64,000 nt of DNA from Halorientalis persicus (GTDB lineage: Archaea > Halobacteriota > Halobacteria > Halobacteriales > Haloarculaceae), in contig NZ_FOCX01000006.1 of the NCBI RefSeq assembly GCF_900110215.1, positions 62,001-126,000 of the forward strand, in the 5' to 3' direction. Under the pieces are notes generated by a model, which worked only from the letters and a program-made list of their open reading frames with translations, was not told where the DNA came from and made no database searches. Each line of letters opens with the position of its first letter. The first letter of the stretch is position 1. Both the position numbers and the translations under genes were made by a program. Of the stretch, positions 50,328 through 64,000 are shown in pieces.

Positions 50328-51890
50328 ATGGTAGCAGGGACGCGGCGGCCGGGAACGCGCGCACAATCCGGGCCGATCGGCTACGTCCTCGTGTTCGCCA
50401 TCGTCATGGCCGGGATGGCGATCATCGTGCTCATCGGCGTCGGTGGACTCTCGGAGACCCAATCCCAGTCCGAAATCCAGCGCGCCGAACACTCGATGAC
50501 GCTTTTCGACTCCCGGGCAGCGATGGTCGCGCTGGGCGATTCCAACGGACAGACGATCTCGTTCGGGCAGGGCGGCGGTACGTTCTCGGTCCAGGACGAG
50601 TCCGGGTGGATGCGTATCGTCCACAACAACTACTCCGAAGACGACGACGACGAGCGCGAGGTGATCTACAACAAGTCGCTGGGTGCGTTGCTCTACGAGA
50701 ACGGCGACCAGTCGCTGGCATACCAGGGGGGCGGCGTCTGGCGGCACGCCCCCGACGGCGAGGCCCGCATGATCTCCCCACCGGAGTTTCACTACCGGGG
50801 CGCGACGCTGACGCTTCCGATCATCCGTACGCTCGGCGGCGGCAACGCCAAGGGGAGCGTCGACGTCTCGATCCAGCCACAGACGCAGGCCGATCTGGTC
50901 TTCCCCGCCAGGTCGCCGCCGACCGTCGGCGACGAGATCGGCGTCCCCTACAACGGCACCGAGCGCAACTACACGAACCCGATCCGCAACGGGACGGTCA
51001 ACGTCTCCGTTCGGAGCGACTACTACGAGGCCTGGGCGACGTACTTCCGGGAGCGAACGACCGGCGAAGTCACCGTGTGGGACAGCAACCGAACCGTCCG
51101 CCTCCAGTTGAAGTCCATCGGCGGCCCGCCCGGGTCCTTCACCATCCCCGAAGAGGGTGAGAGCGTCCCGGCGGACGGGATCGCCGAGGGGCACCCGCTC
51201 AAAACGTTCGAGTTCGACATCGTCTACACCAACGGAAACAACGACCACTTCTCGCTGTACGACGAGCAGAACAATCAGGAGTACGAGTTACACGTCCTCC
51301 CGACGGGGAACAACTACCACAGTAGCTGTCCGGGCTCACCGCCGGACTCGGACGTGTACGTCGGGATGTACTACTACTCCGGTGACGGCTCCGGCGAGTA
51401 CGAGTACTGGGAGGCCGAGATCGACCCCTCGAACAGCGCGATCAGCTGGAGCTGTACCAGCGACGGCCCGCAACTGTCGATCGATATGCTCTCCGATTCT
51501 GTCGACATGGACTACGACCAGGACGCGCCCGGGATCAGTTGCGGGAACGGCGGCAACAAGTGGCGCTTCGGTGAGAACATCAAGTGTGACTACTCCCACG
51601 GCGACGCGACGCTCGACCAGCACGCTGGGGCCGGCGTCGGCTGGGAGCCGACCGTTCAGTACTCCGCGGGAGACACCGCGACCGGGCGCACGCTCGACGA
51701 AATCGTCAACCACTACACCTCGGTGATGGGCCCCGACATCGACATGACCTCACAGATGGGGCCGGGGAACAGTCGTGCCATCGTGCAGGACGCCTCCTCG
51801 GGGACGCTCACCTACGAGACCGCGAGCGGCGCGGAGTACATCACGTACCTCCACGTGACGGAAAACGAGATCGCGGTCGACTTCGACTAG
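50328..51890 (+). CDS. pilin-like protein with long extracellular tail (module 1, long gene)
   Basis: The 520-residue protein begins RRPGTRAQSGPIGYVLVFA, an archaeal pilin-type leader (cleavage would fall before Q or S) followed by one hydrophobic helix (about 16-40). It shares two motifs with three other proteins of the locus: GGVWR followed by SPPEFHYR (about 138-158), and EAWATYF (about 233). After the second motif comes a tail of about 275 residues (Cys, Tyr, Asp and Gly-rich: GNNYHSSCPGSPPDSDVYVG, SWSCTSDG), ending with DEIVNHYTSVMGPDIDM. It resembles haloarchaeal DUF7289-type proteins (by memory). The tail may be an adhesin or tip domain. It converges on the five-gene minus-strand operon with a four-base overlap. 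Confidence 0.8.
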   Translation: MVAGTRRPGTRAQSGPIGYVLVFAIVMAGMAIIVLIGVGGLSETQSQSEIQRAEHSMTLFDSRAAMVALGDSNGQTISFGQGGGTFSVQDESGWMRIVHNNYSEDDDDEREVIYNKSLGALLYENGDQSLAYQGGGVWRHAPDGEARMISPPEFHYRGATLTLPIIRTLGGGNAKGSVDVSIQPQTQADLVFPARSPPTVGDEIGVPYNGTERNYTNPIRNGTVNVSVRSDYYEAWATYFRERTTGEVTVWDSNRTVRLQLKSIGGPPGSFTIPEEGESVPADGIAEGHPLKTFEFDIVYTNGNNDHFSLYDEQNNQEYELHVLPTGNNYHSSCPGSPPDSDVYVGMYYYSGDGSGEYEYWEAEIDPSNSAISWSCTSDGPQLSIDMLSDSVDMDYDQDAPGISCGNGGNKWRFGENIKCDYSHGDATLDQHAGAGVGWEPTVQYSAGDTATGRTLDEIVNHYTSVMGPDIDMTSQMGPGNSRAIVQDASSGTLTYETASGAEYITYLHVTENEIAVDFD

Positions 51891-52639
51891 GTCTCGAACT
51901 CGAAGTTGATCAGGGTCCGCGTGACCGACAGCCGCTTCGGATCGTCGATCCGACACTGGACCGTCTCCGGGCGGGTTATCTTGCAGGTGGCGTCGGCGTC
52001 GTCTTCGAGGTAGCGCCGCCAGAGCCGGTACCGCGGCGAGGTAACGTTGACGATCAGGGCGTCGTAGTCGGCCTGCCGCTGGACGAATTCGGGCAACGGT
52101 TCCCGGACCGCCCGTTCGGCCCGGACTCGGACCGTACCGCCGCTGACGCTCGTGGCGTTGCCCATCTGCTTGGTCTGGATGATCGGGATGATCACTTCGC
52201 CGTCCGTGAACCGGAACGGTGGCTCCTGGCTGACGACGCCGCCCTGTGGCGAGTCACGGAAGACGGCACCGCCCTCGTAGACGATGGCCGTATCGCTGCG
52301 CCCCTCGTACATGATCGGCGTCGCCGAGTAGGAGACGTTCGGATTCTCTCCGCCCGGATCGACGCCGGTGACGTTGATTCTGATAGGTGACCGAACCTCC
52401 AGCCGTGCGTTGTCGAGTTTGATCTCGGTCGAACGGCTCGGCGCACCCTCCTGGTGGATGTCGGTCATGTTGTCCGCGAGCACGTCGAAGGCTCGCTCGG
52501 CGTTGTTCACCTGCTCGGCGTCGCGCGCGTCCTGTAAGATGCTGATGCCGCTGACCGAGACGATACCCACGGTCGCCGCGACCAGCGAGAACACGATCAC
52601 GAATCCGATCACGTCGCTCACTGCACGGTTTCGGCTCAT
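51887..52639 (-). CDS. pilin-like protein, last gene of module 1 operon
   Basis: The 250-residue protein has a pilin-like start, RNRAVSDVIGFVIVFSLVA, with a single helix (about 7-32) after a short basic leader. The body carries the shared motifs GGAVFRDSPQG with PPFRF (about 126-145) and RLWRRYL (about 206). It lacks a long tail. Its ATG overlaps the upstream gene's stop. Counterpart in module 2: 61181-61993. A structural minor pilin is likely but unproven. Confidence 0.8.
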   Translation of the reverse strand: MSRNRAVSDVIGFVIVFSLVAATVGIVSVSGISILQDARDAEQVNNAERAFDVLADNMTDIHQEGAPSRSTEIKLDNARLEVRSPIRINVTGVDPGGENPNVSYSATPIMYEGRSDTAIVYEGGAVFRDSPQGGVVSQEPPFRFTDGEVIIPIIQTKQMGNATSVSGGTVRVRAERAVREPLPEFVQRQADYDALIVNVTSPRYRLWRRYLEDDADATCKITRPETVQCRIDDPKRLSVTRTLINFEFET

Positions 52640-53112
52640 GTCGATTCGTCCTCCAGTGCGAGTTCGTCGCTCGCGGTGTAGTTGACCGCGATGGTTCCGC
52701 CGGACACCGACGACGACTCGATCGGCGTCGACGTTTTCACGGGGACCCTGACGGCGATCTCGGGATCGGTCGTCCGAACCACGACCTGCGGGTCGGTCCC
52801 GCCGTCGAACCTGACCTCGTAGGTGCTTCCGGCCACGCGTGCCGGAAGGTCGCGACCGACCTGCACCGACTCGTTGTCGCTCGTCGTCTCCACCAGCCGG
52901 TCGGCCATCTCCACGTCGGAACTCACCTGTTCGGCCAGCACTTCCAGTTCCGTCTCGATGCTCTGATCGCGCTGGTTCTCGACGAACGTCCCGCCCGCCA
53001 ACAGCAGACCCGTGACTAGGATGAGCGCGATGGCCAGCCCGAGCACGTAGTTCAGCGTCGTCGAGACGCCGCGGTCGTCACGCGTCGCCGTCCGCTTCGC
53101 TCCCTCAGTCAT
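52636..53112 (-). CDS. pilin-like protein, fourth gene of module 1 operon
   Basis: The start is the ATG at 53112 (MTEGAKRTATRDDRGVSTTLNYVLGLAIAL); a GTG nine bases up is possible. The 158-residue product has a basic leader ending in DRG, then a hydrophobic helix (about 17-38) and a beta-rich, acidic outer part. It looks like DUF7266-type haloarchaeal proteins (by memory). Its counterpart in module 2 is 61995-62453: both have DVNEV/ELEVL-type helices after the membrane segment and RDLPARVAGSTYEVRF or VSLPSRVGGGGYNIEL, clearly the same fold. It overlaps the previous gene by 8 bases. Confidence 0.82.
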   Translation of the reverse strand: MTEGAKRTATRDDRGVSTTLNYVLGLAIALILVTGLLLAGGTFVENQRDQSIETELEVLAEQVSSDVEMADRLVETTSDNESVQVGRDLPARVAGSTYEVRFDGGTDPQVVVRTTDPEIAVRVPVKTSTPIESSSVSGGTIAVNYTASDELALEDEST

Positions 53113-54061
53113 CGCTCTCACCCGGGTGTATCCGCGTATCGGTCGCGTACGACAGCGACGTGGACTGGTACTCGACGTGGACCGTCGCCGCGTAGACCGC
53201 CGGCAGTGCGAACGGCACGTCGGGCGCTGTCCCGTAGTTGTCGTGCTCGATGTCCGTACTGTCGATCACTTCGTCCACCACCAGCGAGTAGGTGCCCTGG
53301 AACTGTCGACCGTTCTCGACGGCGATGGTGTAGGGCGTCGAGATACCCTCACCGTACTCCAGCGCCGGACAGTCCGTTCCATTGATTGTCCCCGCCGTCA
53401 GTCCGATGGTGGGGTCGGACCCAGCCGAACAGACGCGCGACGGCCCCGAAGGCGGGTCGGCCCTGATCGCGGTCGTCGTGCCGGCGCTGTTGTTCTTGAA
53501 CAGCGTGAGCGTCCAGGGCGTGCCGTCGGTAACCTGCACCTCCAGGGGGTCGTTGGACGACAGGGCCAGTTCCGAGGAGTCGGTCACGTTGATCCGTGCC
53601 GAGCGCGTTCCCTCGACGCCCGTGGCGATCGTCCAGTCGCTGGCCACGTCGGCGCTGGCCGGCACGGTCGAGTTCGTGAAGTTCCCCGTCGTCCGATTCT
53701 GGCCGATACGGGTCCCCCACTCGACCGAGACCAGCGTCGCGTTGGCACTGATCCCGCGCAACACCTGAAACTGTGCGGCCCGACGACTCGTCGAGACGAC
53801 CGCCCGCGAGAGTTTGTCCCGAAGCACCGGCTGTGTCGAGCCGTTCCGATTGACCGACTCGACCATCGACTCCAGCCCGTCGGCCACGTCGTTGCGGTAG
53901 CTGATCGCGTCCCCGCCGCCGGCGTCGTCCCCGCGGGTGGCGAGGTTTTCAGTGTAGATGACGGAGTTCAAGACCAGCGTCAGCGCGACGAACGACGCCG
54001 CGAGGACGAACCCCGCGACCAGCAGGACCTGCGCACGGTCGTCGCTTCTCAGATCCGCCAC
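53105..54061 (-). CDS. pilin-like protein, third gene of module 1 operon
   Basis: It starts with a GTG at 54061 (MADLRSDDRAQVLLVAGFVLAA). The 318-residue protein has a pilin-type helix (about 10-33), then a helical neck (NDVADGLESMVESV) and a beta-rich outer domain with Asn-X-Ser/Thr sequons (NATLV, NRTTGNFTNST). It ends with YAATVHVEYQSTSLSYATDT. It resembles DUF7261-type proteins (by memory); the counterpart is 62450-63421, whose N-terminus (DDERGQLLLVGAATIALVIVG) is alike. It overlaps the second gene by 13 bases. Confidence 0.82.
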   Translation of the reverse strand: MADLRSDDRAQVLLVAGFVLAASFVALTLVLNSVIYTENLATRGDDAGGGDAISYRNDVADGLESMVESVNRNGSTQPVLRDKLSRAVVSTSRRAAQFQVLRGISANATLVSVEWGTRIGQNRTTGNFTNSTVPASADVASDWTIATGVEGTRSARINVTDSSELALSSNDPLEVQVTDGTPWTLTLFKNNSAGTTTAIRADPPSGPSRVCSAGSDPTIGLTAGTINGTDCPALEYGEGISTPYTIAVENGRQFQGTYSLVVDEVIDSTDIEHDNYGTAPDVPFALPAVYAATVHVEYQSTSLSYATDTRIHPGESDD

Positions 54062-54630
54062 ACGACCACCTCCACGCGGACCACGTCGAAGACTGGTCCC
54101 TCGCCGTTCTTGTCGGCGTAGAAGTTCGAGTTGTTCACTCGCGGCCCGCGAGTCATGTTCTCGTGCAACAGCCGAGTCTCGTTCGCGATGACCACGGTCT
54201 TGCCCGCCGACACCGCGTTGTCGGTCGGTTCCCCTCGGTAGAGGATCGGCTTGCGCTGGGGCCGCCCGGATTTGTAGTAGGTCACGTAGACGTTGTACGC
54301 GATGCCGCGGTCCCCGAACGTCTGCTGGAGCCTCCGGCCAAGCTCCGTCGGCAGCTTTCTGGTGTAGAACCCGTTGACGGTCGCACCGTGGAACCGACTC
54401 TCCGTGCTGTTCCAGTACAGCACCGTCTCGCGCAACGAATCGTTCCGGGCCGCCGTCGCCAGCACGCCCGCGGCGCTGGCTTCTTGCTGGTTCTCGATGT
54501 GCTGGCTCGACGTACTCGCCGACAGCGGCGTCACCGCCGTCATCTGGAGCGCGAAGACGATGCTCGACATCAGCAACAGCCCCGCGACGATGGCCTCCAG
54601 CGTGTGGACCTGCCCGCGCTCGCTCACCAT
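54049..54630 (-). CDS. pilin-like protein, second gene of module 1 operon
   Basis: The 193-residue protein starts MVSERGQVHTLEAIVAGLLLMSS, with the leader ending in ERG and the helix at about 7-30. The C-terminus is VVRVEVVVWRI, matching NIVEVRIVAW of the module 2 counterpart (63415-64000). Both also share a QTF/NVYF(V/R)Y and RKPILYRGEPTDNAVSAGKTVVIA or EAVSQETGDPQSLIAPSDTAVVAS middle region. It looks like DUF7288-type proteins (by memory). It overlaps the first gene by 7 bases. Confidence 0.82.
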   Translation of the reverse strand: MVSERGQVHTLEAIVAGLLLMSSIVFALQMTAVTPLSASTSSQHIENQQEASAAGVLATAARNDSLRETVLYWNSTESRFHGATVNGFYTRKLPTELGRRLQQTFGDRGIAYNVYVTYYKSGRPQRKPILYRGEPTDNAVSAGKTVVIANETRLLHENMTRGPRVNNSNFYADKNGEGPVFDVVRVEVVVWRI

Positions 54631-55247
54631 AGTTTCACCACCAGCGAGACGCTGGTCCCGTTGATCGACACCGAGCGCCGTGCGGTCACCGACGACTGGG
54701 CCCCCGATGCGGCATCGTCGCCGACCGCGAGCGTCTCCACGTCGGTCCCGGTGCAGTCCGTCGTACCCTGTTCGACCAGCTTCCCGGCTGTCTCGTCCCA
54801 GCAGAGCAACTCGTTGGGCGAGCTCGATCCGCTCACGTTCCCGCGAAGCGTGACGTTGAGGAACGCACTGTCGGTCACGCCGACCTGTTCTCTGAGGGGC
54901 GGGCTCCCGAACCGACAGTCCGGGGGTGGGCTCCCGCCCTCGAAAAACGCGACCGTACAGTCCGCGTCCAGGATGTAGGGCGTGTCCGGATCGCCGAGCG
55001 TGTCTTTTGCCAGCCCGTCGGCGACTCTGTTGACCGCCACGATGTCCTCCTGATCACCGGCGGTGAACGGCTGAATCGTTCCCGCCACGAACGCGAAAAT
55101 CGCGACCAGGACGAACACGAACAGCACGACACCAGTCGTGAAATCGAGCGTGGTCTGTGCGCGGTTCCGGTTCCCGCTCGTCATTTCGACCGACGGTCGG
55201 TCCGAGCCCGACTCGCGGCTATCGGCTGTGCCGTCCCGATCGGACAT
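54624..55247 (-). CDS. pilin-like protein, first gene of module 1 operon
   Basis: The start is uncertain. An ATG at 55247 (MSDRDGTADSRES) is used, and an ATG at 55184 (MTSGNRNRAQTTLDF) would give a more pilin-like N-terminus. The membrane helix is TTGVVLFVFVLVAIFAFVAG (about 36-56 from the first start), followed by IVAVNRVADGLAKD and a beta-rich outer part with four cysteines. It ends with SVSINGTSVSLVVKLW. It resembles DUF7287-type proteins (by memory). The module 2 counterpart would lie beyond the right edge of the window. A TATA-like box is at 55391-55399. Confidence 0.78.
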   Translation of the reverse strand: MSDRDGTADSRESGSDRPSVEMTSGNRNRAQTTLDFTTGVVLFVFVLVAIFAFVAGTIQPFTAGDQEDIVAVNRVADGLAKDTLGDPDTPYILDADCTVAFFEGGSPPPDCRFGSPPLREQVGVTDSAFLNVTLRGNVSGSSSPNELLCWDETAGKLVEQGTTDCTGTDVETLAVGDDAASGAQSSVTARRSVSINGTSVSLVVKLW

Positions 55248-55390
55248 ACTCCAGCGTTTCATATGAATCTCGTCCGAATTCGGCCACACGATCGTCCGTT
55301 CGTGCTCACTTCTCGTCCCGCCGCCGACTGGGACTTTCGACTATCGTCACTCACGGAACTGGCGTAATAGGGGTTTTGGCCGTCGTTATT

Positions 55391-55494: not shown

Positions 55495-55566
55495 GGGCTC
55501 GTAGATCAGCGGTAGATCATCCCCCTGGCACGGGGAAGGCCCGGGGTTCAAATCCCCGCGAGTCCA
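55495..55566 (+). tRNA. tRNA-Ala (anticodon GGC)
   Basis: A complete cloverleaf can be drawn by eye. The acceptor stem is GGGCTCG/CGAGTCC, with a G3-U70 wobble pair, the known alanine identity element. The D-stem is GATC/GATC, and the anticodon stem is TCCCC/GGGGA around a CTGGCAC loop, so the anticodon is GGC, reading GCC. The T-stem is CGGGG/CCCCG with TTCAAAT. The discriminator base is A (55566). There is no intron and no encoded CCA. Confidence 0.97.
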
Positions 55567-55655
55567 CTTCCGTTCCTTCCGTCGCTTCACTCGGTCAGTC
55601 ACTCGTTCCCTCGCGTGGTCCCACTCGCCCCGCTCGCGGGACCCCCGCGAGTCCA
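55554..55655 (+). repeat. 100-base repeat starting at the tRNA 3' end, copy 1
   Basis: The unit begins and ends with CCCCGCGAGTCCA, the last 13 bases of the tRNA gene. Inside is an 8-base stem CTCGCGGG/CCCGCGAG with a 3-base loop (55633-55651). Copy 2 at 55773-55872 is nearly identical, with roughly ten differences and a two-base gap. A third copy is cut off after about 20 bases (55867-55886). Confidence 0.85.
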
Positions 55656-55660
55656 TTATT

Positions 55661-55690
55661 CTGCGCCGCTCATCGTTCTGAGCGGCGCAG
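55661..55690. repeat. perfect 12-base inverted repeat (hairpin)
   Basis: CTGCGCCGCTCA (55661-55672) and TGAGCGGCGCAG (55679-55690) enclose a 6-base loop. The hairpin lies directly after repeat copy 1. It may be a terminator, or a relic of an element's end. Confidence 0.7.
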
Positions 55691-55702
55691 ATTGTCGTCG
55701 AT

Positions 55703-55718
55703 GCGGGGATTTGAACCC
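55703..55718 (-). pseudogene. inverted fragment of the tRNA T-arm
   Basis: GCGGGGATTTGAACCC is the reverse complement of the T-arm of tRNA-Ala, GGGTTCAAATCCCCGC. A plus-strand T-arm copy with one extra A (GGTTCAAAATCCCCGC) follows at 55763-55779, so the two face each other across about 45 bases. It is too short to be a tRNA. Confidence 0.7.
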
Positions 55719-55772
55719 TGGAAGTCGCAGCACCGAGCAGCGCGAGGTGACCGTCTTCCTCTGGTTCAAAAT

Positions 55773-55872
55773 CCCCGCGAGTCCACTCACTCCTTCCGTC
55801 GCTTCGCTCCGTCAGTCGTTCGTTCCCTCGCGTGGTCCCACTCGCTCGGCTCGCGGGACCCCCGCGAGTCCA
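55773..55872 (+). repeat. 100-base repeat starting with a tRNA 3'-end copy, copy 2
   Basis: Begins and ends with CCCCGCGAGTCCA like copy 1, contains the same CTCGCGGG/CCCGCGAG stem and is preceded by a displaced T-arm (55763-55772). Translations over both copies are low-complexity and are not treated as genes. Confidence 0.85.
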
Positions 55873-55992
55873 CTTCCGTTCCTTCGGCGTGTCCGACGCC
55901 AGTCGGGCGGCGCTTTCCACGCGTGGTCGAGGGACACCGATACCAGTGGTCGACCGGAATACACAACACGCCGTCGTCCGTTGGCACGTGGC

Positions 55993-56888: not shown

Positions 56889-59800
56889 ATGACAGCCCCA
56901 GGGGAAGGGATGCCAACGGGTGACAGAGCCGTCTCGCCAGTCGTTGGACTGGCGTTGCTCGTCGGCATCGTCGCGCTTGGTGCCCTCGTCGTCGTGGTTC
57001 TCGGTGGTAGTATCGTTCAGGATGTGAACAACCAGAACCAGGTCGAGGTCGCCGAACAGTCGATGCGCGAGATTTCGTCTCGCATCGACGATCTCGAGAA
57101 CAACAACCGGATGGCCTTCGAGTTCCCGTCGAATCTCGGCGGGGACGTTCGGACGATCGAACGGACGACGATCAATCTCTCCGTCGGTGAGAACGCAGAT
57201 GTCGCGAGTGGGGGGAACGTCTGTTACACCGGGCCAATCTCTATCGGCACACTACTCGCGGAGACGGAAGAAGGCGATATAATCGGCTACGAGGCCGGTG
57301 GGGTCTGGCGCAAATCTTCACGTGGCAGCAGTTCTGTCGTGTCGCCGCCGGCGCTCAACTACCGTGAGGGCCAGATCGGCATCAAACTCGCGGACTTCGA
57401 CGGCCACATGAGTGATTCCGATCGACTCGTCGCGACCGTCAACGAGTCGGGCTCACAGCTGAAAAACGAGTACCTGCAGAAGGCACTGCTGACCGACAAG
57501 AACTTCGAGGAAATCGAGGCCAACCCGGGTGTGACGCCGTCCGACATCACCTGTGATCCGCGGGTGTTGTCCAACATGACGGTCTCGATCCAGAACAGTC
57601 CGTTCGCGACGGCCTGGCACACGTACGCCAAGCGGAACTTCTCACCGGATCGGACGACCATCGAGACACCCGATTCGACCGTCGACGCTGGCGAGAACGT
57701 CTCGATCACCTTCACAATCGGCGAACGGGTTGAACCTACCTACGTCGTCGAAGACCCGCCGGCACTCGTGGCCTACCAGACGAACACGGACTCGGAGGAT
57801 TTCTGGGTCAACGCGACGGTGAACAACACCGGTCGACTGACCGGCGCACAGAACGTGACGCTCGACTGGTACAGCAAGGGCGGCGGCTCGTGGACCCTCG
57901 AAGCGTCGAACGTGACCGGATACAGGAACCTCTCGCTGCTGAACAACCAGAACGTCACCCTCCCGTTCCGGGTCGAGCACGACAACCTCACCAGCGGGAA
58001 CACCTACAGATACAGTCTCGACACCGGTGATCAGGTCCGGAACGGGACGGTGCAGATCGTCCCGTCGACCGGCGATCTCACGATGTTCGAGACCACGATC
58101 ACGGACGCACCCGCGAGTATGCAGGCGTCCGACAGCGAGACTATCACGGCCGAGATCACGAACACGGGGACAGTCGAGGCGACCAAGACCGTCGAGTTCA
58201 CCTTCCCCGACGCCGATGGTTCGGATCGGACGGTTCTCGAATCGCGGGAACTCACTCTCTCGGCAGGTGGGACCCGCACTCTCACCTACGACATTCCGAC
58301 CTACCTGCAGGGGAACCTGAACGCGACGTTCGCGGTCGACAACCGTCGCAGTCCGGCCGAAATCGACTCGACCGATATTCTGATCGGAGACAACGAGTAC
58401 TTCGGCATTCAGGGGACGACACCGCCGAGCGGCAAGGCGGTGGTCGTCGGCGACGACTTCGACATCAGTACGACCGTGAAAAACGAAGGGAGCTCCGGTG
58501 GGAAACAGGATATCGAGCTCTACGTCCGCAACGAGAGCGGGGTCGTGGTCACGACCGAGACCAAGACGAAAACGATCCCCAGCGGTAGCACACAGACGAT
58601 CTCCTTCGACGACCTCGAAGTCGACGAGGGCGGTGTGCACACGTACGAGGTCGTCACCAAAAACGAGTCTGCCACCGGGAGTTTCACTGCCGGTGACAGC
58701 GAGGCGGCGTACTTCCTCGTTCAGGAGGCCGGTGCGGTACCGGACCCGGTCGAACCGGAGGAGTCGCTGAACGTCTCTGCGCTGATCGTCAACACGGGCG
58801 TGGCCAACGGGTCGATGTCGTACTCGATCGCGTTCGACGGGACGACGATCAGTTCGGGGACGGAGTGGCTCGACGTCGACAACGAAACCGTCGTCGAGGG
58901 GTCCTACGAGATTCCGTCGGGGACCAGTAACGGGACGTATCCGGTCACAGTCTCGACAGACAACATGACGCTGACTCAGGATGTCTACGTGACTGAGAAT
59001 GTCCCCGACAGTCCGGGAATCGGTGACGACAACGGCACGTCGATCGGCATCACGCGGAACATGACGATCAGCCTGACGGTCGAAGGGACTGCGCTGACGG
59101 GTCTCTCCGATAACACGCAGGCCGGGTACGACGGGAGCTACGACATCTTCCGTAGCCCTATCGAGATGTACGTCGCGCTCCAGAACGACTCGAACCCGGA
59201 CGGGATCGACAGACCGTGGGGGACCCAGGACATGAATACGCCGACGAAGCGCGTCCTCCAGATGCAAGACGATCCGTCGCTCAACTACACTACGACGGTC
59301 GGTGCCGGAACGAACGTCTCCGTGTTCGCGAAATCCTATACGTGTGGTGGCGGAGAGTTCATCCGACCCGGCAACTACGAGGACGTCGACATTCCCGAGA
59401 ACGGAGATGGATACAGGTGGATCCCGAATCCGGATCGAGGGGAGTGGGGAGAGCCGAACTGGGTCACCGCCGACCGCCTCGTCTGTACCGACTGGGTGAA
59501 CCCGTGGATCGGGATCAGCCAGAGCCAGAACCCCTCGAATCTGGTGATCAAGAAAGACGGTGAGCGGGTCCCCGGCTTCGAGGCCGCCAGCGAGGACCAG
59601 CGGAGCGTCGCCGAGATCATCGAGAACCACACGACGCCCAACGGGCGGTTCGACCTGCGGGAGAACGAGCGCGTGCTGATGTACGAACTCTCCGAGGCGG
59701 ACGCCGATCCGGACAACGCGTACTACGCTGGCGACCCGGACTTCAACGACGCCGTCGTGCTCTTCCGGGCGCTGAACACGTCGACTGACCCGTCGGCACC

Positions 59801-60824
59801 CGGCGATCCGGTGCTCCAGATCAACGACACCGACGCGCCCGCGAAAGTCGCGCCGACCGACACGCCCGAGGTGAACGTCACCGTCGGCAACATCGGAACG
59901 GCCCCCGACACGACAAACGTGACGCTTGCCGTCGACGGGACCGTCGAGGCGACCGAGAGTAGCGTCAACGTCTCTGAGGGCGAGACCAAGACCGTCTCGC
60001 TCGAAGCGCCGACGATGGCACCCGGGGCCCACACGCTGACGATCAATCTGAGCGCGAACAACGAGAGCGTCACCCGGAGCATCTACGTCGGGACCTCTTC
60101 GTACGACGCCTTCGTCGTCAACGTCGACTCCTCGGCGACCGACACGGTCGTCGAGCAGACCGACACCTTCACCATCGCCGCCGAGGTGACCAACGTCGGG
60201 TCGATCTCCGGGACACAGGACATCGACTTCACTGCGACGCCGGAATCCGGGACCGTCGCAGTCGGTGACTCCACCCAGACCAGAAGCGGTCTCACGCTCT
60301 CGCCCGGGCAGACGAAGACGGTCCAGATGACGTTCGATCCCGACGACAACACACGCGGGCGGTTCGAAGTCGCGGTGTCATCGGCCAACACCACTTCGAC
60401 AGTGGATGTCAACGTCGAGGAGCCGCGACTGCGGATCGACGGGGCCTACGTCGGCGTGACCAAACTCGAACCCGGGGCCCGGACGGATCTGGACGTGGCA
60501 CCGCAACGCCTCGACATCGTGGTGAACAATCCGGAACTGATCGCCGAGTCTGGTTCGCTCTCGGTGAAACTCTGGGAGGGGACTAGCCCGAGCGGAGCAC
60601 CCGATATCGACAAGAGCAACTCCGTTCAGGTTCGGGCCGGTGCGGACATCTCCACCGTCGACCTCGACACGACGCTTGATCCGGGCGTGTACGCTTACGA
60701 GATCTCGACGAGCGACGATACCGAGTCGGGGACGCTCTTCGTCCCCGACAACGCCCGGTCCCAGGCGTCGTTCGACACCGACCTGATCTCCATCGACGCG
60801 AACGTCATCGCGCTCGGCGGGTAA
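56889..60824 (+). CDS. giant pilin-like protein with CARDB-like repeats (module 2, long gene)
   Basis: The ATG at 56889 has a strong ribosome binding site. The 1311-residue protein begins with a pilin-type leader and helix (GDRAVSPVVGLALLVGIVAL, about 11-40). The family motifs follow: GGVWRKSSRG with SPPALNYR (about 137-160) and TAWHTYA (about 238). The rest is outside the cell: CARDB/Ig-like units near 290-395, 398-500, 504-605, 607-715, then a Trp/Cys-containing insert (718-970; TCGGGEF, WIGISQSQNP, VAEIIENHTT), and units near 975-1070, 1071-1178 and 1181-1300. Many Asn-X-Ser/Thr sites suggest N-glycosylation. No second membrane anchor is visible. It could be a stalk-like adhesin carried on a pilus; this is inference. 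Confidence 0.85.
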   Translation: MTAPGEGMPTGDRAVSPVVGLALLVGIVALGALVVVVLGGSIVQDVNNQNQVEVAEQSMREISSRIDDLENNNRMAFEFPSNLGGDVRTIERTTINLSVGENADVASGGNVCYTGPISIGTLLAETEEGDIIGYEAGGVWRKSSRGSSSVVSPPALNYREGQIGIKLADFDGHMSDSDRLVATVNESGSQLKNEYLQKALLTDKNFEEIEANPGVTPSDITCDPRVLSNMTVSIQNSPFATAWHTYAKRNFSPDRTTIETPDSTVDAGENVSITFTIGERVEPTYVVEDPPALVAYQTNTDSEDFWVNATVNNTGRLTGAQNVTLDWYSKGGGSWTLEASNVTGYRNLSLLNNQNVTLPFRVEHDNLTSGNTYRYSLDTGDQVRNGTVQIVPSTGDLTMFETTITDAPASMQASDSETITAEITNTGTVEATKTVEFTFPDADGSDRTVLESRELTLSAGGTRTLTYDIPTYLQGNLNATFAVDNRRSPAEIDSTDILIGDNEYFGIQGTTPPSGKAVVVGDDFDISTTVKNEGSSGGKQDIELYVRNESGVVVTTETKTKTIPSGSTQTISFDDLEVDEGGVHTYEVVTKNESATGSFTAGDSEAAYFLVQEAGAVPDPVEPEESLNVSALIVNTGVANGSMSYSIAFDGTTISSGTEWLDVDNETVVEGSYEIPSGTSNGTYPVTVSTDNMTLTQDVYVTENVPDSPGIGDDNGTSIGITRNMTISLTVEGTALTGLSDNTQAGYDGSYDIFRSPIEMYVALQNDSNPDGIDRPWGTQDMNTPTKRVLQMQDDPSLNYTTTVGAGTNVSVFAKSYTCGGGEFIRPGNYEDVDIPENGDGYRWIPNPDRGEWGEPNWVTADRLVCTDWVNPWIGISQSQNPSNLVIKKDGERVPGFEAASEDQRSVAEIIENHTTPNGRFDLRENERVLMYELSEADADPDNAYYAGDPDFNDAVVLFRALNTSTDPSAPGDPVLQINDTDAPAKVAPTDTPEVNVTVGNIGTAPDTTNVTLAVDGTVEATESSVNVSEGETKTVSLEAPTMAPGAHTLTINLSANNESVTRSIYVGTSSYDAFVVNVDSSATDTVVEQTDTFTIAAEVTNVGSISGTQDIDFTATPESGTVAVGDSTQTRSGLTLSPGQTKTVQMTFDPDDNTRGRFEVAVSSANTTSTVDVNVEEPRLRIDGAYVGVTKLEPGARTDLDVAPQRLDIVVNNPELIAESGSLSVKLWEGTSPSGAPDIDKSNSVQVRAGADISTVDLDTTLDPGVYAYEISTSDDTESGTLFVPDNARSQASFDTDLISIDANVIALGG

Positions 60825-61180: not shown

Positions 61181-61993
61181 TCAGTAGATCGTCGACAGTT
61201 CGATGACCGTCCGCCGGAGGAAGACGGTCCCACCGTGGTCCCCGCCTTCGTCCACCTTGCAGTAGAACTCCCCATCACGGGCGCTCTCTTCCCACCCACT
61301 ACGACTGAAGTACTGGTCCCAGGCGTCGGACGCGGCCATCTCCGACACGTTGATCGAGACGTTCCCCGCGTCTGTGGGCTGGAAGTACTGGTTGCCGTTC
61401 GGGTCCGGCCCCGGGAACAGCTTCGCCGAGCCCTCGTCGACGTGTTGCCCGACCAGCACGACTGAGGTCTGACCACCGAGGCTGATGTTCCCGCGGAGTG
61501 AGATCAGCGACAGCGTCGCCCGTTTCTCCGGTCGACACTCGAAGGTCGGTCGATGACGGACGAGTTGCCCCTGCCGGCCGAGCCGGAACAACCCGCCAAT
61601 CTCGTAGACGAACCGCGTCGGGACGTCTTTCGAATCCAGCACGAGTGCCCTGGGGTCGAGCGTCCGCTCGATGATCGGCGTTTCCGGGTCGGTCGTCGTG
61701 TTGTTGATCCGTACGAACAGTCTCGACTCGGTCGTCCGGAGCGAACTCCCGCCGAGTTCGACTTCGAGCGCCCGCCCGGGAATGTCCTCCTCGTGAATCT
61801 CCTCGTAGGTCTGGGCGACCCCCTGCATCGTCCGGTCGGCGCTGTTGGCCCTCTCGCCGGCCTGGAGGTCGTTGAGCGCGTCGAACCCGCTGATGTAGAC
61901 GAACCCGATCCCGCTGACGATGATCGCGAACGTGAGCGTGAACGCGACCAGATCCGACACCGCCCGTTGCCGCCGTGTGTCCCCGTCGAACAT
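61181..61993 (-). CDS. pilin-like protein, last gene of module 2 operon
   Basis: The start is the ATG at 61993 (MFDGDTRRQRAVSDLVAFTLTFAIIV). The 270-residue protein has the leader RQRAVSD as in its module 1 counterpart (RNRAVSD), a helix (about 10-34), the shared motifs IGGLFRLGRQG with RPTFECR (about 131-152) and DAWDQYF (about 224). It ends with FLRRTVIELSTIY, parallel to SVTRTLINFEFET. It follows the fourth gene by one base. Confidence 0.82.
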   Translation of the reverse strand: MFDGDTRRQRAVSDLVAFTLTFAIIVSGIGFVYISGFDALNDLQAGERANSADRTMQGVAQTYEEIHEEDIPGRALEVELGGSSLRTTESRLFVRINNTTTDPETPIIERTLDPRALVLDSKDVPTRFVYEIGGLFRLGRQGQLVRHRPTFECRPEKRATLSLISLRGNISLGGQTSVVLVGQHVDEGSAKLFPGPDPNGNQYFQPTDAGNVSINVSEMAASDAWDQYFSRSGWEESARDGEFYCKVDEGGDHGGTVFLRRTVIELSTIY

Positions 61994-61994
61994 A

Positions 61995-62453
61995 CTATCG
62001 CACCCCCGATTCGATCGTGATGCAGTCCTCGCCCGAATCGTACTTGACGCTCGTCGGGCCGCCCGAGAGTGCCCGCTCACAGACCGCCGTCTCGTTGCTG
62101 ATCTTGACCGGAACGGTGTACGTCGTCGTGTTCGTCCAGAGGACGACGTCGTTCTTGCCGTTGACGGCCAACTCGATGTTGTACCCACCGCCGCCGACCC
62201 GGGACGGGAGCGAGACGCTCGATCGGACATTGTACGGGTCCCCGGTGGTCGCGAGGTGGTCGACTTGGTGGATCTCGCTGATCAGTACCTCGTTCACGTC
62301 GGTGAGGCCCCGCTCGCTGACGCGTTCTTCCTGCCGGGTCACGAGCTGGCCGGCTCCGATGATCAGCCCCGAGATCAAGATCGCCGTGATCCCCAGCGTG
62401 AGTGCGTGGTTGAGGGCGATCGAGGCCGCGCGGGTGTCGCCCCGGAAGCTCAT
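61995..62453 (-). CDS. pilin-like protein, fourth gene of module 2 operon
   Basis: The 152-residue protein begins MSFRGDTRAASIALNHALTLG, with a helix at about 14-36 and then TRQEERVSERGLTDVNEVL, a helical neck, and a beta-rich outer part (SLPSRVGGGGYNIELAVNG) with two cysteines near the end. It is the counterpart of 52636-53112. Its start overlaps the third gene's stop by ATGA. Confidence 0.82.
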   Translation of the reverse strand: MSFRGDTRAASIALNHALTLGITAILISGLIIGAGQLVTRQEERVSERGLTDVNEVLISEIHQVDHLATTGDPYNVRSSVSLPSRVGGGGYNIELAVNGKNDVVLWTNTTTYTVPVKISNETAVCERALSGGPTSVKYDSGEDCITIESGVR

Positions 62454-63421
62454 GCGCCTCCCTCCTCGATCAGCGTCGTGTTGTACGTGATCCCCGGTCG
62501 CTCGTAGACGAAGGTGAACGCTGGGCGGTACACCGAAATCCGCTCCTTATCTGGGTTGTTCACCGCCGAGTATTCGCTGTCACTCCCGAACATATACGAT
62601 CCCTCCAGTGCCTGTCCGCGTGGGCCGTCGTATTTTGCGGAAATGTCGTAGGGACCGTCGACAGCCGACTCGAATTTCAGCTCATCCCACTGATTCCCGT
62701 TGACCGTTCCACTCCGGATGTCGATATCGACATTGTTCGTCGTGGTGAAGTCACTTCCCCCCTCCAGTCGAAGTATCGGTGGACCGGACGGGCTTTCCCT
62801 TACCTGAATCAGTTCGGTGTCGGAAGTCGTCTGACACGTAATCTGCATCGACCAGTAATCTGTCCCCGTCTTGTGATCCACCACGGTTACTCGGACGCCG
62901 GCACTGGTCCCACTACAGGAAAAGTCCTTGATCGTCAGATTAGCCGGACTGACCACGGACGCGTTCTCCGCAACGGGGTATGGGTCGTTGAAATCCGACG
63001 CTCCGAACGGGTGAGTAAAGCGGGTCGCAGGATTGGTTTCTTTGACAAGAACTCCCGATCCATCCATCTCAGACCTCTTTTTGTTCAAACTGACGTTCAC
63101 GTACGTCGCACTGTCGGCGAACGTCATGTTCGACAATCGGTTGCTGTAGATCGAGATGTTTTGCCGGATGGCCGTCTCGAAATTGACCAGCCCGGTGTCA
63201 TTGCGTACACGGTCGGCCATCTTCGACAGATCGCCCCGGACCATCTCCGCGGTGCGCTGGGCCTCGTCCGTGGCGTCGAAGTTCCCTTCGGTCCCGACCG
63301 TATCGGTGAACTTCAGTCCGTTGAGCAGGATGACGGAGCCGACGATGACCAGGGCGATTGTTGCCGCGCCGACGAGCAACAACTGCCCGCGTTCGTCGTC
63401 GGGGAGGCTCAAACTCACCAT
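62450..63421 (-). CDS. pilin-like protein, third gene of module 2 operon
   Basis: The start is the ATG at 63421 (MVSLSLPDDERGQLLLVGAATIALV); the frame upstream overlaps the second gene. The 323-residue protein has a helix at about 13-33, a neck (FDATDEAQRTAEMVRGDL) and a beta-rich outer domain with sequons (NISIY, NMTFA, NLTIK). It ends with RPGITYNTTLIEEGGA. It matches 53105-54061 in position, length and layout. It overlaps the second gene by 7 bases. Confidence 0.82.
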   Translation of the reverse strand: MVSLSLPDDERGQLLLVGAATIALVIVGSVILLNGLKFTDTVGTEGNFDATDEAQRTAEMVRGDLSKMADRVRNDTGLVNFETAIRQNISIYSNRLSNMTFADSATYVNVSLNKKRSEMDGSGVLVKETNPATRFTHPFGASDFNDPYPVAENASVVSPANLTIKDFSCSGTSAGVRVTVVDHKTGTDYWSMQITCQTTSDTELIQVRESPSGPPILRLEGGSDFTTTNNVDIDIRSGTVNGNQWDELKFESAVDGPYDISAKYDGPRGQALEGSYMFGSDSEYSAVNNPDKERISVYRPAFTFVYERPGITYNTTLIEEGGA

Positions 63422-64000
63422 GCGACGATTCGCACCTCCACGATGTTGTACAGGTCGGAGTTCGGCGCCACGTCGGGCATGAAGTACGGTCGCTGCTCCG
63501 ACCACTGCTCGACGGTTCTGGGCGCGTTACTGAACGTGTCACCGCAGGCCGTCCCGCTCGCGCCACTGATCCTGACCGGTTCGTCGTCGTAGATCGCCAC
63601 CGTCCGACTCGCGACGACGGCCGTGTCGGAGGGTGCGATGAGGCTCTGTGGATCGCCCGTCTCCTGTGACACTGCTTCGGACTCGATCTCGCCGTCTTCG
63701 GTCTGGTATCGGAAGTACACGTTGAAGCTGACGCTCTGATTGCTCAGCGACTGGTTTAACAGTCGCTCGAACTGGGTCGCGTCGTCGTCGAGTGTCGCGC
63801 CCTGGAAGCTCTGGGCACCGACCTGATAGCAGCGGACGATCTTGCTCAGGTTCCCGTCGTTGGCCGTCAGGGCCAGCACGTCCTCGGCTCTGGTCTCCAG
63901 GGCGCTGGTCTGCTCGCTCGTGTCGCTGGCCCACGGCCCGATATCGACGATCTGGAGGCCAAATACCAGCGACGTGAGGACGATGATCGCGGCGAAGACA
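63415..64000 (-). CDS. pilin-like protein, second gene of module 2 operon (5' end outside window)
   Basis: The reading frame is open from the stop at 63415 to the right window edge, so the start lies beyond it. The edge part encodes FAAIIVLTSLVFGLQIVDIG, a membrane helix like LLLMSSIVFALQMTAVT of the module 1 counterpart (54049-54630). The C-terminus NIVEVRIVAW is also the same type. The first gene of this operon is expected outside the window. Confidence 0.82.
   Translation of the reverse strand, partial: VFAAIIVLTSLVFGLQIVDIGPWASDTSEQTSALETRAEDVLALTANDGNLSKIVRCYQVGAQSFQGATLDDDATQFERLLNQSLSNQSVSFNVYFRYQTEDGEIESEAVSQETGDPQSLIAPSDTAVVASRTVAIYDDEPVRISGASGTACGDTFSNAPRTVEQWSEQRPYFMPDVAPNSDLYNIVEVRIVAW

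Follow-up and report, generated by a model that had tools for sequence, protein, structure and literature searches.

A tail-bearing DUF7289 protein of Halorientalis persicus as a candidate archaeal counterpart of bacterial modular pilins

We analysed a 64,000-nucleotide stretch of Halorientalis persicus DNA (contig NZ_FOCX01000006.1, positions 62,001 to 126,000; hereafter the window), in which the gene at 56889–60824 on the plus strand encodes a 1311-residue protein with a pilin-like N-terminus. With a probability of roughly 0.6, we read this protein as a minor subunit of an archaeal type IV pilus that works like a bacterial modular pilin, probably at the filament tip, where it would display a ligand-binding module. 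The evidence comes from the architecture of the protein, from relatives that keep the head and a central module with or without a stalk, and from the convergent arrangement of such genes with operons encoding an assembly ATPase.

Architecture of the long protein

The open reading frame is intact, with 1311 codons' worth of residues and no interruption. A class III (prepilin) leader and helix are followed by a DUF7289 head, four CARDB/immunoglobulin (Ig)-like units, a 250-residue module and three more CARDB units:

56889..60824, +: tail-bearing DUF7289 protein (modular pilin-like), 1311 residues (open reading frame, translation, Pfam, CARDB profile)
56889..56930, +: short prepilin leader of the class III signal type, residues 1-14, predicted to be cut after A14; it ends in DRA, and VSPVVG follows (sequence; orthologs retain R-[GA]-[VIA]-S)
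56931..57077, +: hydrophobic N-terminal helix, residues 15-63 (hydropathy; helix at 17-63 in a low-confidence model)
56925..57725, +: DUF7289 pilin-like head, residues 13-279; all 19 orthologs checked have Cys112 and Cys222 (Pfam, ortholog alignment)
57777..58055, +: CARDB-like unit 1, residues 297-389 (CARDB profile, as for units 2 to 7)
58086..58364, +: CARDB-like unit 2, residues 400-492
58401..58688, +: CARDB-like unit 3, residues 505-600
58713..58991, +: CARDB-like unit 4, residues 609-701
59028..59777, +: central module ('payload'), residues 714-963, with Cys819, Cys866 and a Trp-rich variable loop at 821-865 (profiles, alignments)
59595..59768, +: module core, residues 903-960, with Q904, E933 and GDPDFND (948-954); most conserved stretch of the protein (alignments)
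59817..60089, +: CARDB-like unit 5, residues 977-1067
60120..60416, +: CARDB-like unit 6, residues 1078-1176
60507..60743, +: CARDB-like unit 7, residues 1207-1285

The N-terminus has the features of a class III signal, namely a short leader with R-[G/A] ahead of a hydrophobic helix (GDRA|VSPVVGLALLVGIV...), and these are retained in orthologs. The Pilin_N match lies under the Pfam cut-off (22.2 versus 25.2 bits). DUF7289 (PF23960) is matched well over its curated cut-off (59.9 bits versus 27) across residues 13-279. Beyond residue 60, the best 19-residue hydropathy mean is 1.0, compared with 3.0 in the N-terminal helix, and no second membrane segment was seen. The protein contains 35 N-x-S/T sequons, a number reached in none of 2000 shuffles (16.6 ± 3.5); the CARDB stretches account for 23 of them, the central module for 7 and the head for 5. 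Both a PibD-type prepilin peptidase (one Peptidase_A24 match over the cut-off) and the STT3 oligosaccharyltransferase family are present in the genome. A first-pass annotation, made from the window's letters, had proposed a pilin-type leader and helix, some 250 N-terminal residues resembling other family members, dense N-glycosylation sequons and a single membrane anchor, and all four hold up here. It had also called the size unusual, which is true of pilins in general but not of this DUF7289 branch, whose tail-bearing members span ∼440 to 1380 residues.

DUF7289 was found in 113 of 116 genomes of the class, and we found no mention of it in the literature searched. A head profile returned two matches in the PDB, both weak: an archaeal type IV pilin (9myg, E 0.14) and a flagellin (8fk7, E 0.38). 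The same pilin is also reached by the whole-protein profile (E 0.005). A model of the head shows a long helix followed by strands, with low confidence (mean predicted local distance difference test score, pLDDT, 47; predicted TM score 0.48), and a Foldseek search of the PDB with this model gave no match under E 0.37.

CARDB (PF07705) scores 51.5 bits against a cut-off of 22.7, over three stretches. Using a CARDB profile grown from the protein's own repeats, we delimited seven units: four precede the central region (297-701) and three follow it (977-1285). Independent confirmation comes from the whole-protein profile, which matches solved chains of the PF1109 type (3idu, 2kl6; E ∼1e-5). Structure prediction, which had been suggested for counting domains, gave two models too low in confidence to strengthen what the sequence shows (mean pLDDT 31 and 47); the count of seven is by profile.

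Conservation of head and module, variation of the stalk

The long form is not peculiar to this genome. A Halorientalis pallida protein is 79% identical across residues 1-1310, and a search of 146 Haloarculaceae genomes found full-length orthologs in ∼33, with matching open frames of ∼1240-1380 residues. Full-length-type loci that were examined whole have an identical layout: DUF7289, four CARDB units, central module, three CARDB units. The ∼33 genomes exclude a local fusion, whether a merger confined to one genome, which the first-pass annotation had named as grounds for abandoning its reading, or a frameshift artefact.

Relatives vary in the stalk. A module profile found members in 90 of 292 genomes of the class; with three alignments as queries, no relatives were found in viral contigs. 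At six loci (L112, L113, L114, L115, L116, L119) the module directly follows the DUF7289 head, in proteins of 500-529 residues, and at four of these (L112, L115, L116, L119) the stalkless protein sits at the same position beside the same operon. Elsewhere the module lies at the C-terminal end behind two to six CARDB units (L117, L120-L123, L126, L127) or between CARDB pairs (L131). Stalk presence changes at least three times on the head tree, so stalk length is labile.

Mean pairwise identity is 0.53 in the module core (903-960), 0.42-0.45 in the head and 0.32-0.38 in the CARDB units. Cys866 is invariant in 19 of 19 orthologs checked and Cys819 in 18 of 19. As relatives keep the module without the stalk, these comparisons point to head and module as the conserved parts and to the CARDB chain as a variable spacer. 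The first-pass annotation had described a tail of CARDB/Ig-like units with a central Trp/Cys insert. The repeated units are real, but the 'insert' is a conserved module and not a decoration of the stalk. Nor is the stalk the defining feature that it was taken to be, given the relatives at the same genomic position that carry the module without it. We reject the stalk as the functional part, at least as the simplest reading: relatives have anything between zero and seven units and still keep the module.

Two loci show other arrangements. A 2106-residue protein at L124:8562-14882 has the module at 443-665 and no detected DUF7289 head, so the module may also occur outside pilin-type carriers. At L125:9194-13912, a 664-residue protein with DUF7289 and four CARDB units is encoded 1.6 kb from a separate 362-residue module protein on the same strand; the pair looks like a stalk-module protein broken in two.

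The central module and DUF4114

The central region (709-965) contains 6 of the 13 Trp and 2 of the 4 Cys residues of the protein. Across 26 diverse modules, one Gln, one Glu and the Asn-Asp of [DN]-[YF]-N-D are invariant. The C-terminal motif of the module, Glu...Asp-x-Asp-Tyr/Phe-Asn-Asp, resembles that of DUF4114 (conserved Glu-Asp and D-x-D-Y-N-D). When the module was compared with an archaeal DUF4114 alignment using hhalign, it scored 76.6% (P 2e-5) over the last 22 columns, and 37.9% with a narrower alignment; the head and CARDB alignments, used as controls, gave 0.1% and 0.8%. The Pfam cut-off for DUF4114 (PF13448) was not reached: the module of the long protein had no match and 2 of 26 modules matched weakly (best E 0.068). 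A DUF4114 family search in Haloarculaceae gave nothing above the cut-off, and a search of the PDB with module profiles found nothing meaningful. A single-sequence model of residues 608-967 had a mean pLDDT of 31 and was unusable. A motif expression matched 28 of 37 module proteins, 0 of 635 other open reading frames of the same loci and no shuffled sequences; because it was written from the modules, these counts speak to specificity only.

We take these data as weakly suggestive of DUF4114 kinship. Such kinship would matter because DUF4114 has a putative calcium-dependent sugar-binding role in PilY1.1, a pilus tip protein (PMC9109919; PMC13190605), and binds mannose in an Acanthamoeba adhesin (PMC11934332). 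As relatives at the same genomic position carry the module without a stalk, the module, possibly DUF4114-like, is a better candidate for ligand binding than the stalk. In other members of the phylum (L061, L062, L063), we observed proteins with one to three C-terminal DUF4114 domains behind an N-terminal part that looks papain-like by eye.

Convergent pairing with pilin operons

Downstream of the long gene, on the opposite strand, an operon converges on it. It encodes an ATPase (T2SSE, with PilB3_N and PilB3_C), TadC (two T2SSF stretches) and five small pilin-like proteins (DUF7287, DUF7288, DUF7261, DUF7266 and DUF7289). The ATPase has 847 residues with T2SSE at 422-642, which would fit the extra N- and C-terminal regions of the PilB4 type (PMC4858521). 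A second pilin set in the window has no ATPase or TadC of its own, and it too lies tail-to-tail, with a 4-bp overlap, with a DUF7289+DUF7308 gene. This suggests that the two sets share one assembly motor. The genes concerned are:

61181..61993, -: small DUF7289 pilin-like protein, encoded at the end of the ATPase operon and convergent with the long gene (Pfam, locus comparison)
61995..62453, -: DUF7266 pilin-like protein (Pfam)
62450..63430, -: DUF7261 pilin-like protein (Pfam)
63415..64000, -: DUF7288 pilin-like protein, running past the window (Pfam)
contig 126052-131282, same operon as 61181-64000: DUF7287, TadC and the T2SSE ATPase, beyond the window (Pfam)
50328..51890, +: paralogous tail-bearing protein, DUF7289 head plus DUF7308, 520 residues (Pfam, head tree)
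51887..55289, -: second five-gene pilin operon (DUF7287, 7288, 7261, 7266, 7289), no ATPase (Pfam)

In a maximum-likelihood tree of 73 heads, the small and tail-bearing forms of DUF7289 are split by a branch with 100/100 support. Among the loci fetched, most of them chosen via the module and their counts linked by phylogeny, there are 27 small DUF7289 genes at an operon end. For 26 of these, a convergent tail-bearing DUF7289 gene lies no more than 0.5 kb away; the partner of the 27th has its head cut off by a contig end. Given this mode of selection, we also tested 20 operons chosen via DUF7288 alone. Seven show the convergent pair, four a swapped form and one an inverted tail-bearing gene inside the operon, so that a tail-bearing DUF7289 neighbour is present in 12 of 20; the other eight have none. 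In the swapped form (L137, L138, L150, L151), a DUF7289+DUF7308 gene ends the ATPase operon, with a small DUF7289 gene as convergent partner in three of the four. Convergent pairing is common, not universal: with 12 of 20 operons, a universal association of pilin operon and tail-bearing gene is rejected.

Between the two pilin operons lies a tRNA-Ala(GGC) gene (55495-55567), followed by repeats of its 3' end across 55550-55885. The repeat AAATCCCCGCGAGTCCACT occurs at 55550 and 55769, with near-copies at 55639 and 55856; there is also an inverted T-arm copy (55703-55721) and an 82-nt direct repeat (93%). The region looks like an old integration or duplication scar.

Proposed role and alternative explanations

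The following model would account for these observations. A PibD-type peptidase would remove the prepilin leader, leaving the hydrophobic helix, both of which are evident in the sequence. The adjoining ATPase and TadC would then use this helix to insert the long protein into a filament or pilus-tip complex alongside the five small pilin-like proteins. In this lineage, four CARDB/Ig-like units would hold the module away from the head, with three more after it. The module would bind a ligand, most likely a surface glycan, through the Glu / Asp-x-Asp-Tyr-Asn-Asp site, probably with Ca2+. We favour a tip location because 1050 extra residues on a pilin are easiest to accommodate at the end of a fibre, as argued for modular pilins (PMC8179133), and because the module of the stalkless relatives would stay near the membrane unless a fibre carried it. 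Since tail and module differ between copies, one pilus platform could take different tips.

Several points weigh against this proposal. We infer filament assembly, tip location and binding from sequence, and both structure models are poor (mean pLDDT 31 and 47). The link to DUF4114 amounts to 22 aligned columns and lies below the Pfam cut-off. Eight of the 20 operons chosen without regard to tails lack a tail-bearing neighbour, which means that such a subunit is not needed beside every operon of this type, and in several families (L117, L120-L123, L126-L128) no ATPase operon adjoins the module gene.

The main rival, which we consider unlikely, is a membrane-anchored surface protein that never enters a filament: once PibD had cut the leader, the helix would remain in the membrane and the four CARDB units would lift the module past the surface layer. 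The lack of a second anchor and a sequon-rich tail of 1050 residues, typical of cell-surface proteins, would suit this role, and so large a subunit could hinder packing anywhere but at the tip. However, the stalkless relatives of ∼500 residues beside the same ATPase operon would then leave their module near the membrane, and the recurrent tail-to-tail pairing with the pilin operon also argues against it. A different assembly is conceivable for the same ATPase, in which the long protein belongs to a short pseudopilus or secretion-type complex, its large domain capping the fibre or aiding export without adhesion. Five small pilin-like proteins plus one large member recall the tip complex of type II secretion, and GspK of that system is cited as a large tip pilin (PMC8179133). 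Yet no exported-substrate gene was recognised near the locus, and surface presentation is the more usual role of a variable Ig stalk. Haloarchaea have, to our knowledge, no outer membrane or secretin, and we judge this explanation highly improbable.

It is also doubtful that the roles of module and stalk are reversed, with the CARDB stalk as the binding surface and the module acting as an enzyme or, stabilised by calcium, in a purely structural role. CARDB/Ig domains could themselves bind ligands, and the Pfam entry for DUF4114 notes possible enzymatic residues, but conservation is lowest in the stalk, and many relatives lack it while keeping the module.

A wider form of the modular-pilin proposal is offered tentatively, as a possibility that the present data fall short of favouring: haloarchaea may have type IV pili with lectin tips, made by direct fusion of a calcium-dependent, DUF4114-like sugar-binding module to a pilin; reach would be tuned by gain and loss of Ig-like units between the two, and many pilin operons would have their own exchangeable tip gene in tail-to-tail orientation. 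For the question of how surfaces, partners or viruses are recognised by archaeal type IV pili, this locus offers a defined candidate gene beside an operon. The candidate site (E933, D949-D954) and the natural versions with and without a stalk make the idea of exchangeable archaeal pilus tips testable. Looking for convergent pairs in other genomes is an easy route to more such genes, which at present are assigned to families of unknown function.

Comparison with known systems

Tip adhesins are known in bacteria; the literature searched yielded no account of one borne by an archaeal pilin. PilY1.1 of Myxococcus xanthus (PMC9109919, PMC13190605) likewise has a putative calcium-site Asp motif in a presumed sugar-binding module on type IV pili. 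PilY1, however, is a non-pilin with a beta-propeller, whereas the long protein has a pilin-type head, no Pfam match to the C-terminal propeller, and likeness to DUF4114 in its C-terminal motif only. The repeated Ig-like unit is shared with CARDB surface proteins (PF07705; PF1109 domain, 2kl6/3idu; VARTIG proteins of Thermococcales, PMC8416519), which, unlike the long protein, are not described there as borne by a pilin head beside a pilus operon.

Among archaeal pilins, the long gene has the expected genomic link to an assembly ATPase and TadC through its convergent operon. The arCOG02911 minor pilins of euryarchaeal clade 2 type IV pili are, in the relevant passages of Makarova et al. (2016; PMC4858521), described as all-beta and, like the long protein, are FlaFind-type, prone to duplication and encoded beside a PilB3/PilB4-type ATPase and TadC. 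Those passages give them ∼250-550 residues, compared with 1311 here, and describe no CARDB stalk or central module. Judged from that description, arCOG02911 is likely the same family as DUF7289.

The closest parallel in design is bacterial, where modular pilins with grafted adhesive modules provide a precedent (PMC8179133). PilB and PilC of Streptococcus sanguinis and CofB likewise combine a small N-terminal pilin module with a larger non-pilin display module, and variable modules occur on one carrier; the long protein, too, consists of a pilin module and a C-terminal non-pilin module. It differs in having an archaeal DUF7289 carrier instead of the bacterial IPR012902 motif, for which no Pfam match was found in the long protein at E up to 1, in its size (1311 residues versus 860 for the largest case in PMC8179133) and in the interposed chain of seven CARDB units; display is the role described there and predicted here. 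Because the bacterial motif is missing, we describe the protein as working like a modular pilin and do not file it as a member of that group. The best explanation for a protein of 1311 residues with a pilin-like head and an Ig stalk is that it is an archaeal counterpart of the bacterial modular pilins.

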